The position numbers were made by a program, and so were the translations under genes. The notes under the pieces were generated by a model. It saw only the letters and a program-made list of their open reading frames with translations. It ran no database searches and was not told where the DNA came from. A stretch of 64,000 nucleotides of DNA from Fischerella sp. PCC 9605 (GTDB lineage: Bacteria; Cyanobacteriota; Cyanobacteriia; Cyanobacteriales; Nostocaceae): positions 1,544,518 through 1,608,517 of the forward strand of contig NZ_KI912148.1 of assembly GCF_000517105.1 (NCBI RefSeq), written 5' to 3'. Within the stretch, counting starts at the first letter, position 1; each line of letters begins with the position of its first letter. Below are positions 58,988 to 63,542 of this stretch, piece after piece.

Positions 58988-59300
58988 TCAGTACTTAATT
59001 GAGATACTATTAATGTCAAGAAATTTTTCATATACAATATACTTCTTTAACCTTTTGTTCAGGTTGCTGCCCCGGAAATTATAATTTGGGGCTAAATTTA
59101 TCATAAATCGATTTCCAGGATCATTATGCTCGATATCTATATTGGCTGAATTGCACAGACTTTTGGTTTGAGCAATTATCCTGCCATCGCTTTCCCTTCC
59201 CAGATGTCAGCAGATAGTCCTTTTGATGACGATAATGTCGTCGATTGTATCTAACCCCCCATTTAACCACCCATTACCTACAGCCCCGATATATTGTATG

Positions 59301-61583
59301 ATGAGTAGCGCAATTGTCAATCACCCCGTAGATATAACCATTCCAGAATGGCTACAAAATTGCTTGTCCGCACCGCCTCCAGATCGTGCCGCAAGTGAAG
59401 ATGACCGAAGGTATTATGATACAGATTTGATTTGCCGAGCATTTGAATTTGCCTATCACCTGCATCAAGGTCAGTACCGCAAATCAGGAGAACCTTATAT
59501 TTGCCATCCTGTTGCTGTAGCTGGGATGCTGCGTGATTTAGGAGGCAGTGCTGCTATGATAGCAGCTGGATTTTTACATGATGTAGTCGAAGATACAGAT
59601 GTTACAATTGAAGAAATAGAACAGCGTTTTGGCTCAGAAGTCAGACGTTTAGTTGAAGGTGTAACTAAGCTTTCAAAAATCAACTTCAAAAGCAAAACTG
59701 AAAGTCAAGCGGAAAACTTTCGGCGTATGTTTCTGGCAATGGCACAAGATATCCGCGTGATTGTGGTGAAACTGGCAGACCGTTTGCATAATATGCGGAC
59801 TTTAGAATTCATGCCAGAAGAAAAACGCCGTCGCACCGCTTTAGAAACAAGGGAAATTTTCGCTCCCCTAGCTAATCGCTTGGGGATTTGGCGTTTTAAG
59901 TGGGAATTGGAAGATTTAGCGTTTAAGTATTTGGAACCAGAAGCTTTTCGCCAAATTCAGCAGCTTGTTTCGGAAAAAAGAACGGCGCGGGAAGAAAGAT
60001 TAACGAAAGTAGCTGAAACTTTGCGATCGCGAATGGCAGAAGCAGGTATTCGCTGTCTTGATATCAGCGGTCGTCCCAAGCATCTTTATAGCATTTATCA
60101 AAAGATGCAGCGCCAAAACAAAGAATTTCACGAAATTTACGATTTGGCAGCACTGCGGGTGATTGTCCAGACCAATGAGGAATGTTATCGTGCTTTGGCG
60201 GTAGTTCATGATTTATTTCGCCCGATCCCCGGTAGATTTAAAGATTATATTGGCTTACCCAAGCCCAATCGTTACCAGTCTCTGCATACAGGGGTGATCG
60301 GGCCTTGGGGTCGTCCTTTAGAAGTGCAAATTCGCACCATCGAAATGCACCATGTCGCCGAGTATGGGATTGCAGCCCACTGGAAGTACAAAGAAACCGG
60401 AGGTTCTCACATTGGCCATTTAACTGCGTCTGATGAAAAATTCACTTGGTTGCGGCAGTTATTGGAATGGCAAAATGATCTTAAAGATGCTCAGGAATAT
60501 TTAGAAAGCATCAAAGATAATCTCTTTGAAGATGATGTTTATGTTTTCACTCCCAAGGGAGATTTAGTGGCTTTAAGTCCAGGTTCTACGACAGTAGATT
60601 TTGCCTACCGCATTCATACAGAAGTAGGAAATCACTGTGCGGGTGCGCGGGTGAATGGAAGAATGGTACCGCTATCTACGCGGCTGCAAAATGGCGATAT
60701 TGTCGAGATTATTACCCAAAAAAATAGCCATCCCAGCTTGGATTGGTTGAACTTTGTCAGGACTAGTGCGGCGAAAAACCGCATTAAGCAATGGTACAAG
60801 CGATCGCGCCGAGAAGAAAATATTGCTCGCGGTCGGGAATTATTGGAAAAAGAACTCGGTAAAACAGGTTTTGAAGGTCTGCTGAAGTCAGAACCAATGC
60901 AGGCGGTAGCAGAAAAGTGTAATTACCACTCAACTGAAGATTTACTCGCAGCTTTGGGTTACGGGGAAATAACGCTGAACTTAGTACTAAACCGTTGGCG
61001 AGAAATAGTTAAGGGGCAACAGCCTGTTACTAATGAACCAGAATTTACACCAAATCTGCCAACTACAGCTAAAGCAGCAGCGGCGTTGCGAGATGGAGGG
61101 CCGGCAACGACTTCGCGCTTATCTGACTCGCCAATCGTTGGGGTAGAAGGGTTAGTGTATCATCTGGCTGGGTGTTGTACTCCCATTCCTGGTGAGGCAA
61201 TTATCGGTGTTGTCACGCGCGGTAAGGGAATATCTATCCATCGCCAAGGATGTCACAACCTAGAGAAAGTAGAGTGCGATCGCCTTGTGCCGGTAAGTTG
61301 GAACCAAGCAGCAGAAAACATTGGTCGTCCTCAGAGTTATCCAGTGAATGTGCAAATTGAAGCTTTGGATCGGGTGGGAGTGTTAAAGGATATTTTGTCG
61401 CGGCTGAGTGACCAAGGCATTAACGTGCGTCATGCTAACGTCAAAACTTCTTTTGGTCAACCGGCGTTGATTGATTTGGGGATCGAGATCCGCGATCGCT
61501 CTCAATTAGAACACATATTTGTCCAAATTAAGAAAATGAGTGATATTCTCAATATTCGCCGCGTCGGTCAAATTGATGGATAG
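59301..61583 (+). CDS. relA: bifunctional (p)ppGpp synthetase/hydrolase (RelA/SpoT family)
   Basis: About 760 residues. Start taken at the Met of MSSAIVNHPVDITIPEWL; earlier in-frame starts reach 59223 (TTG). In order: HD hydrolase domain (YICHPVAVAGMLRDLG, GFLHDVVEDTD), synthetase domain (GRPKHLYSIYQKM, RFKDYIGLPKPNRYQSLHT, VEVQIRT-type LEVQIRTIEMH), TGS domain (DVYVFTPKGDLVALSPGSTTVDFAYRIH), helical and zinc-finger-like region (LAGCCTPIPGEAIIG) and a C-terminal ACT domain. Both active sites look intact, so it should make and destroy the starvation alarmone. Confidence 0.97.
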   Translation: MSSAIVNHPVDITIPEWLQNCLSAPPPDRAASEDDRRYYDTDLICRAFEFAYHLHQGQYRKSGEPYICHPVAVAGMLRDLGGSAAMIAAGFLHDVVEDTDVTIEEIEQRFGSEVRRLVEGVTKLSKINFKSKTESQAENFRRMFLAMAQDIRVIVVKLADRLHNMRTLEFMPEEKRRRTALETREIFAPLANRLGIWRFKWELEDLAFKYLEPEAFRQIQQLVSEKRTAREERLTKVAETLRSRMAEAGIRCLDISGRPKHLYSIYQKMQRQNKEFHEIYDLAALRVIVQTNEECYRALAVVHDLFRPIPGRFKDYIGLPKPNRYQSLHTGVIGPWGRPLEVQIRTIEMHHVAEYGIAAHWKYKETGGSHIGHLTASDEKFTWLRQLLEWQNDLKDAQEYLESIKDNLFEDDVYVFTPKGDLVALSPGSTTVDFAYRIHTEVGNHCAGARVNGRMVPLSTRLQNGDIVEIITQKNSHPSLDWLNFVRTSAAKNRIKQWYKRSRREENIARGRELLEKELGKTGFEGLLKSEPMQAVAEKCNYHSTEDLLAALGYGEITLNLVLNRWREIVKGQQPVTNEPEFTPNLPTTAKAAAALRDGGPATTSRLSDSPIVGVEGLVYHLAGCCTPIPGEAIIGVVTRGKGISIHRQGCHNLEKVECDRLVPVSWNQAAENIGRPQSYPVNVQIEALDRVGVLKDILSRLSDQGINVRHANVKTSFGQPALIDLGIEIRDRSQLEHIFVQIKKMSDILNIRRVGQIDG

Positions 61584-61776: not shown

Positions 61777-62103
61777 TTACGATGTCTGATTTAAGAAAAA
61801 TATCCAACAACCACCATTGAGTAAAGCCGTGATGACTGCACCAACAATTACTCCTTTCATCAATGGGAATTTTTCTCGTCTTTTTAGTATAAAAATAACG
61901 GGAATGATATATACAAGTTGAGTGATCCCAATACCACTAAGATATATAATCAAAACTCGTAGGAAAAAATTTATTGCTAATGCATAGCCAATCACTGACT
62001 CCAACAATATCAGAAAAAGAAAAATAACAATTGCTAGTATATGCATTCCCAATACTAAAAAAGCACCCGCAATAACATTAGTAAATTCATTTCTTCGAGA
62101 CAT
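61777..62103 (-). CDS. small polytopic membrane protein, unknown
   Basis: A 108-residue protein with three probable membrane helices (about 8-40, 45-72 and 84-104) and basic loops (KRREKFPLMKG). No family recognised. It starts 23 bp after the radical SAM gene on the same strand, so the two are very likely one operon, and it may anchor that enzyme or act on its lipid or cofactor product. Confidence 0.7.
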   Translation of the reverse strand: MSRRNEFTNVIAGAFLVLGMHILAIVIFLFLILLESVIGYALAINFFLRVLIIYLSGIGITQLVYIIPVIFILKRREKFPLMKGVIVGAVITALLNGGCWIFFLNQTS

Positions 62104-62126
62104 GGATTTTTCTTAAATGGCAAAAT

Positions 62127-63542
62127 TCAATTTTTTTTATTAACCAATTCATACCCAGCACTACCCTCGCGATAAAAAATATTGAAGGTATCAAAGGGAA
62201 TAATCCTTCCATCTGGATGTACGATATGAATACACGATCGCTTCACAGAACGCACATCAAAGTTAAAGGGATCGAGAAACTGGACTATCATAATCCGAAA
62301 AATATTCGCATAGGTAATACCTTCAGGTACGCTTAACATTGGCAAACAACACAAAAGTTGCTTTAATGATGTTGCAGCTGAACTGGGTGAATGACTGGTA
62401 GAAAATAACTGAAAAATGTGGTGTTTGAGTTCTGCGTTTTGTTCGTAAAGTACGCTATTCGGCATGATTTCTACAAACACTTCGGGATTGATTAGTCCAG
62501 TCAGTGGTATGACTTTACCATTCAGTTTCAGCACATAGGCCATTGCCAAACAATCGGGATGGCAAGGAACAGGTAGAATATCTTGAGGTTGAAAGTAGGG
62601 ACTCTGTTGTAAAATTGACCTGCGTACTTCTGTAAGAGTGTACCTATCACGCTTGGGATCAAATCCCTGCAAACGTCCAGCAGCTTGGATGGGTTGAAAT
62701 GTTACGCCTCGCACACAACGCTGTTGCAAAGCATACTCAATTATTTTGCCGATTTCGTGGTCATTTAGCCCTTTTTTGAGGGTGACGACTAGAGTTGTAG
62801 AGATATTGTATTCGTTCAGGTGTGCGATCGCTTGTTCGCGAACACTACGCAAATCTGCACCCCGCAATTCTTTTAGCGCTTCTGCCTCAAAGCTATCAAA
62901 TTGCAGATATACTTCTATACCAGGCATGTATTGACTGAGGCGATCGCAAAAAGTTTTATCTTTCGCAATCCGCACCCCATTCGTATTAATCATTAAATGC
63001 TTAATCGGCTTGCTTTTAGCAATATCCATAATTTGAAAAAACTCTGGGTGGATTGTCGGTTCGCCACCACTCAACTGTACTATTTGCGGTTCTCCTTCAT
63101 TAGCCACCACCGCATCAATCATCCTTTCAATTTCTGCTAAGCTGCGATGGTGTCTGGGTTGATGAGAAACTTGTGAAAATTCTTCTGCACCGGAATCAGC
63201 ATAACAAATTGGACAAGAAAGATTGCACCTATCTGTTACTTCTATTAAAGTTAAACAGCTATGTTGTTCATGGTCGGGACACAATCCACAATCATAAGGA
63301 CAACCATATTTTATCGGTGTATGAAACTGAAGTGGCATATCTCCTGGCTTGATGAATTCCAGGGATTTTTTGTAATATTCAATATCATCGGCAATCAAAA
63401 CTTCTTCTCGTCCGTGAGTAGGACAGTGTTTAACTAAATAAACGCGATCGTCCTGAAAAATAATTTTTGCTTCTACCTTGACGAGACACTTTGAACAAAC
63501 ACTATTCGTCAAAGCATAAAATAGATAATTGTGAGTGGGCAT
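62127..63542 (-). CDS. radical SAM protein with two CX3CX2C motifs (MJ0619/Tes class)
   Basis: A 471-residue enzyme. An N-terminal zinc-finger-like part has C16, C19, C40 and H43. Then CPYDCGLC gives C81-x3-C85-x2-C88 with C96 nearby, and CNLSCPIC gives the radical SAM cluster C106-x3-C110-x2-C113. PQIVQLSGGEPTIHPEFF follows. Two such Cys motifs behind a zinc module mark the class of archaeal MJ0619 (pterin methylation) and Tes (tetraether lipid coupling). Substrate here is unknown. The C-terminal third has no SPASM signature that I can see. Confidence 0.88.
   Translation of the reverse strand: MPTHNYLFYALTNSVCSKCLVKVEAKIIFQDDRVYLVKHCPTHGREEVLIADDIEYYKKSLEFIKPGDMPLQFHTPIKYGCPYDCGLCPDHEQHSCLTLIEVTDRCNLSCPICYADSGAEEFSQVSHQPRHHRSLAEIERMIDAVVANEGEPQIVQLSGGEPTIHPEFFQIMDIAKSKPIKHLMINTNGVRIAKDKTFCDRLSQYMPGIEVYLQFDSFEAEALKELRGADLRSVREQAIAHLNEYNISTTLVVTLKKGLNDHEIGKIIEYALQQRCVRGVTFQPIQAAGRLQGFDPKRDRYTLTEVRRSILQQSPYFQPQDILPVPCHPDCLAMAYVLKLNGKVIPLTGLINPEVFVEIMPNSVLYEQNAELKHHIFQLFSTSHSPSSAATSLKQLLCCLPMLSVPEGITYANIFRIMIVQFLDPFNFDVRSVKRSCIHIVHPDGRIIPFDTFNIFYREGSAGYELVNKKN

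Follow-up and report, generated by a model that had tools for sequence, protein, structure and literature searches.

A Tes-like radical SAM enzyme, a diverged Lgt paralog and a small membrane protein: a putative lipid-modifying gene cassette in Fischerella and other bacteria

Introduction

The tetraether lipid synthase Tes, also named GDGT-MAS (MJ0619; PDB 7TOL/7TOM), forms a carbon–sulfur intermediate at a [4Fe-4S] cluster, and its C-terminal cluster has been discussed for this role (PMC9433317). The protein was once assigned as a pterin methylase, an activity that has not been corroborated (PMC9433317). Homologs of Tes in bacteria are already known as unassigned proteins (PMC9433317, PMC8941075). 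A separately named bacterial enzyme, the membrane-spanning lipid synthase Mss, couples two fatty acids (PMC11868695).

Two further protein families are important for the comparison. The radical SAM (seleno)protein TrsS (NCBIfam NF045646) is paired with an adjacent methyltransferase of the DVU_1556 type. Lgt is the prolipoprotein diacylglyceryl transferase. In the Escherichia coli enzyme, the residues Y26, H103, R143, N146, G154 and R239 are absolutely required (PMC13251419). R143 and R239 hold the phosphate of phosphatidylglycerol (PG) in position, and H103 has been linked to recognition of the prolipoprotein (PMC4728403, PMC13251419). H103, and sometimes N146, also vary among the ordinary Lgts of other phyla (PMC13251419).

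The window analysed here is a stretch of 64,000 nucleotides from Fischerella sp. PCC 9605, and the genes of interest lie at and just past its end. No description of a cassette that combines Lgt with a radical SAM enzyme was found in the literature searched, which is not proof that none exists.

A Tes-Like Radical SAM Enzyme

The gene of the enzyme starts with ATG, and the following features were recognised in it.

62127..63542, minus strand: Tes-like radical SAM enzyme, 471 aa (zinc ribbon and Radical_SAM domains, PDB 7TOL match, AlphaFold2 model)
63414..63497, minus strand: rubredoxin-like metal site C16-X2-C19-X20-C40-X2-H43, spaced as in Tes
63270..63302, minus strand: N-terminal auxiliary [4Fe-4S] motif C81-X3-C85-X2-C88 with H91, aligned with Tes
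63204..63227, minus strand: radical SAM [4Fe-4S] motif C106-X3-C110-X2-C113, within Pfam Radical_SAM
62550..62564, minus strand: C327 and C331, C-terminal auxiliary cluster region
62346..62351, minus strand: C398-C399 pair, absent from Tes
62232..62234, minus strand: C437, common to Tes

The N-terminal Cys/His module and the two CX3CX2C motifs that the earlier note had described are present in the open reading frame, the motifs at exactly the residues it gave. Their cysteines and histidines, including H91, are all invariant in an alignment of 66 homologs from several phyla (cyanobacteria, Bacillales, Planctomycetes, Verrucomicrobia and others). In Pfam, Zn_ribbon_HMPTM is matched at residues 8–51 (E 9e-18) and Radical_SAM at residues 100–270 (E 2e-23). 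The rubredoxin-like site of Tes is C9X2C12X20C33X2H36, and its C73/C77/C80 and a conserved histidine are aligned with the N-terminal auxiliary motif of the enzyme (PMC9433317). The SAM-pocket residues R227, Q283 and R290 are also conserved and correspond to Arg210, Gln268 and Arg275 of Tes. Matches to antiviral pVip (viperin) in PADLOC span the radical SAM core only, and those in PHROGs are to generic radical SAM domains; a viperin identity was rejected.

The structural class proposed in the earlier note is borne out by the structure prediction and Tes alignment that it had recommended as a check. A phmmer search of the PDB returned Tes (7TOL, E 2e-64), to which the enzyme is about 28% identical. 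An AlphaFold2 model, computed without templates from 66 sequences, reached a pTM of 0.89 and a pLDDT of 85. When this model was compared with the PDB using Foldseek, 7TOL and 7TOM were the top matches (7TOL: E 3e-37, TM-score 0.79/0.76, over its length), and all subsequent matches had far lower TM-scores. The common four-domain architecture makes the predicted enzyme Tes-like, yet it is no curated Tes. Its best NCBIfam score is to the TrsS model, full-length over residues 12–462, with 322 bits against a cut-off of 490, and the Tes model (NF045702) gives 288 bits against a cut-off of 450. The enzyme is thus below both equivalog thresholds and outside both curated families. It has a PVPC-type C-terminal cysteine in common with methyltransferase-linked relatives. 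The earlier note had cited MJ0619 and Tes as two precedents, one of them a pterin methylase; both names denote one protein, and the methylase activity is uncorroborated (PMC9433317), so the pterin branch of the interpretation drops out.

The enzyme differs from Tes in the C-terminal auxiliary region. C327 is present in all 80 sequences of the subfamily and C331 in 67 of them, and the Tes counterparts of the two are serine and cysteine; both may be regarded as candidate cluster ligands. The C398-C399 pair and C437 are likewise found in 80/80. Two further cysteines of Tes are replaced, by S436 next to C437 and by D451, so that the enzyme is without one cysteine of the Tes CC pair and without the Tes PFC cysteine. 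The C-terminal [4Fe-4S] cluster of Tes is characterised by labile Met439 and conserved Tyr459. At the position of Tyr459, the enzyme has I440, and isoleucine is found there in all 80 sequences; at that of Met439, methionine occurs in 53/80, and the window's enzyme has valine. Since the set of C-terminal cysteines differs, the same reaction is not to be assumed, and the chemistry of the enzyme may be different from that of Tes.

The Small Three-Helix Membrane Protein

An open reading frame for 108 aa begins 23 bp past the stop of the enzyme gene on the same strand.

61777..62103, minus strand: small three-helix membrane protein, 108 aa, cassette gene
61807..61809, minus strand: Cys99 of the small protein, in the C-terminal part of the last helix, after ...KRREKFPLMKGVIVGAVITALLNGG

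The AlphaFold2 model (pLDDT 88) contains helices at residues 3–38, 41–75 (kinked) and 79–107, in agreement with the three-helix protein that had been expected from the sequence. No Pfam or NCBIfam family matches the protein. Its sequence drifts fast, with a mean column identity of 21% among homologs. Nevertheless, a cysteine near the C-terminus is found in 63 of 64 homologs, and the sole exception is truncated where its contig stops. The residue at −1 is alanine or glycine in 45/63 and that at −2 glycine or alanine in 51/63; the cysteine is preceded by a hydrophobic helix, with Lys/Arg ahead of it. This setting is lipobox-like and would resemble a lipoprotein signal peptide, and the charge pattern suggests an N-in/C-out topology. 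However, position −3 is mostly asparagine, compared with the usual leucine of a lipobox, which counts against a lipid cassette.

The neighbourhood survey that had been proposed as a check of the enzyme/membrane-protein pairing used a profile search and recovered a homolog of the small protein after the enzyme in 60 of 81 loci. Among the other loci, most of those from planctomycetes and verrucomicrobia encode a diverged small membrane protein at this position, and several from Paenibacillus and Saccharibacillus encode none there. The profile search thus leaves about a quarter of the loci with the protein undetected, a point against the cassette. Oscillatoriales USR001 has a tandem pair of small-protein genes after the enzyme (L043:11441-12102).

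The Lgt Paralog and the Gene Cassette

The next genes upstream lie just past the end of the window.

Contig positions 1609006-1609746 (G000:C6), minus strand: Lgt paralog, Pfam LGT, 0.5 kb past the window end
Contig positions 1608430-1609002 (G000:C6; L113:2431-3003), minus strand: permease-like gene, 190 aa (BPD_transp_1), between the Lgt paralog and the enzyme

The paralog has a length of about 250 aa. In the window's genome, it scores 103 bits to Pfam LGT (model positions 1–232 of 240) and is 23% identical to the ordinary Lgt encoded elsewhere, which scores 282 bits and is not the copy paired with the radical SAM enzyme. The paralogs of related loci match LGT with E-values from 1e-24 to 2e-32. 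R143, G154, Y235 and R239 are kept in 66/66 paralogs. Three other residues of the set required in E. coli are replaced, namely Y26 by histidine (64/66), H103 by valine (65/66) and N146 by cysteine (66/66); the same pair of Y26H and N146C has been reported for MSMEG_5408, the second Lgt of Mycobacterium smegmatis (PMC13251419). This pattern suggests that PG binding remains and that the acceptor or the chemistry has changed, with the caution that H103 and sometimes N146 are variable in ordinary Lgts as well. Given these three replacements at positions essential in E. coli, the paralog is perhaps no transferase at all.

Of 80 related loci, 65 have an Lgt paralog in the vicinity of the enzyme. With few exceptions, the paralog immediately precedes the enzyme on the same strand, and in many cases the two genes overlap by a few bases. 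The earlier note had suggested a membrane-associated system of two genes; the conserved pairing of enzyme and small protein holds, and the number of two is ruled out by this third gene. Among 386 genomes of the phylum (thresholds E <= 1e-60 for the enzyme and E <= 1e-20 for the paralog), the enzyme is present in 10, the paralog in 9, and both are shared in 9; the Fisher value of 2e-17 is only indicative, as genomes are not independent. Two relatives (G004, G008) possess both genes though unlinked. Exceptions to co-occurrence are a genome with the paralog and without the enzyme (G009), one with the enzyme at a contig edge and without the paralog (G037), and one with an enzyme fragment only (G005). 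In the last, a close relative, an N-terminal stretch of 88 residues (G005:C34:60618-60869, L013) lies about 5 kb from an intact paralog, and the remnant looks like decay or interruption.

In the window's genome, the permease-like gene begins 3 bp after the Lgt paralog, just past the window end, and 370 bp separate it from the enzyme, an arrangement that counts against the cassette. A homolog in the same place is found only in Argonema among the 80 loci (L039:1656-2282, 49% identity). A PspA/IM30-like gene (193 aa, L113:3859-4440, minus strand) directly precedes the Lgt paralog and recurs in only three other cyanobacterial loci (L034, L036, L041); a link to membrane stress is possible. Flanking genes such as TetR, MarR, Mn-catalase, HlyD, YbjQ and others vary among loci and were discarded as clues to function. 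On the other side, a RelA/SpoT-type (p)ppGpp synthetase/hydrolase reading frame, recognised by reading its sequence (window 59223-61583, plus strand), converges on the cassette.

The genes also occur in other orders: in Tumebacillus lacus, the small protein is ahead of the Lgt paralog (L070:8996-11413), and in a planctomycete locus (L093), a frame resembling the paralog lies downstream of the enzyme. The 1 Mb plasmid of Persicobacter psychrovividus carries an overlapping pair of Lgt paralog and radical SAM genes (L128:4265-6395), with an enzyme 55% identical to that of the window; its location on a plasmid suggests horizontal spread.

More distant relatives were also found. In Nonomuraea, and in Mycobacterium avium and M. 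branderi on plasmids, a diverged enzyme (33–35% identical to the window's) is encoded close to an Lgt-family gene, annotated as such in the two mycobacteria. Also near it are small membrane proteins that share the C-terminal cysteine. These actinobacterial enzymes (L130:5911-7452, L131:5911-7455, L133:4938-6470) keep the zinc ribbon and the SAM motif; the N-terminal auxiliary CX3CX2C is absent from this branch, which counts against the cassette reading. The plasmid-borne relatives of Mycolicibacterium vanbaalenii and a haloarchaeon pair with methyltransferases instead, and in an exploratory tree, whose deep nodes are weakly sampled, they stand apart from the cassette branch.

Possible Functions of the Cassette

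The reading towards which we lean, with slightly better than even confidence, is a three-gene membrane-lipid-modifying cassette: the Tes-like enzyme would modify an acyl or diacylglyceryl substrate, and the Lgt paralog would transfer or present this substrate. The reading draws on the sequence and its motifs, the predicted fold, the association and co-occurrence of the genes and the residue swaps, and we infer the lipid substrate, the order of steps, the identity of the acceptor and the membrane sidedness. The C-terminal cysteines that differ from those of Tes, the isoleucine in place of Tyr459 and the residues replaced in the Lgt paralog weigh against it. The radical SAM enzyme would reduce SAM to give a 5'-deoxyadenosyl radical, which would take a hydrogen from the hydrophobic chain of a diacylglyceryl or phosphatidylglycerol-type substrate in the Tes-like pocket. 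The C-terminal auxiliary cluster might then couple or functionalise the carbon that has lost it. The Lgt paralog would bind phosphatidylglycerol via its retained arginine pair and transfer or present the diacylglyceryl group to an acceptor other than ordinary prolipoprotein. The small protein, with a cysteine ending a positively flanked hydrophobic helix, is a candidate acceptor or lipid carrier.

One competing reading is that of a bacterial Tes, which would join the ends of two fatty-acyl chains to form membrane-spanning lipids (diabolic acid or brGDGT-like), with the Lgt paralog and the small protein supplying or tethering the substrate. Such coupling has been proposed for bacterial Tes homologs (PMC8941075, PMC11868695), and the common fold, three of four metal sites and the frequent methionine at the Tes Met439 position are consistent with it. 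The score below the Tes cut-off, the different cysteines of the C-terminal cluster and the invariable isoleucine in place of Tyr459 nevertheless make this reading unlikely. Cyanobacteria and most of the Bacillales that carry the cassette are not known for membrane-spanning lipids. It is just as doubtful that the small protein itself is the substrate, its C-terminal cysteine diacylated by the Lgt paralog and the lipid or nearby residues modified by the enzyme to yield a small modified lipoprotein or lipopeptide. The nearly invariant cysteine, the hydrophobic helix, the charged upstream loop and the small residues before the cysteine argue for such a product. Against this stand the tails after the cysteine, which are very short (4–17 residues) and unconserved in sequence, the replacement of H103, tied to prolipoprotein binding in Lgt (PMC4728403), and the loci with no recognisable small protein.

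A TrsS-type enzyme whose substrate is a small thiol or a compound of a metalloid, with the Lgt association reflecting export or anchoring and not lipid chemistry, appears improbable. TrsS gives the top NCBIfam score, and the Mycolicibacterium and haloarchaeal plasmid relatives pair with methyltransferases; this score is, however, below the TrsS cut-off, and the open reading frame needs no in-frame selenocysteine codon. No methyltransferase recurs in the part of the neighbourhood clusters that was annotated, none of the DVU_1556 type was present beside the enzyme among the recurrent neighbours examined in related loci, and it is the Lgt pairing that defines the enzyme's branch. As for a pterin methylase, as once claimed for MJ0619, nothing speaks for it except the old annotation that survives in the Pfam name Zn_ribbon_HMPTM. 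With MJ0619 being Tes (PMC9433317) and no pterin gene among the annotated neighbours, this reading is scarcely credible.

We rank a radical reaction of the cassette that functionalises or couples a diacylglyceryl substrate before the synthesis of membrane-spanning lipids and the modification of the small protein. Of the alteration of a lipid or a cofactor suggested in the earlier note, the lipid is kept as the best guess. The lipid-modifying role is the best supported reading. A bolder and rather tentative possibility is that a widespread system of Tes-like enzyme and diverged Lgt builds a new kind of lipid by a route separate from the normal lipoprotein pathway. The conserved cysteine of the small protein might, for instance, carry a diacylglyceryl group that is sulfur-linked or has undergone radical coupling.

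Conclusions

The gene association described here narrows the question of what bacterial Tes homologs do for one large branch of them. It provides named partners and targets for point mutants: an Lgt paralog that has kept the arginines for PG binding and lost three other residues that ordinary prolipoprotein acylation requires, and the nearly invariant cysteine of the small protein. If a lipid product is found, radical lipid chemistry would extend to common cyanobacteria and Bacillales.
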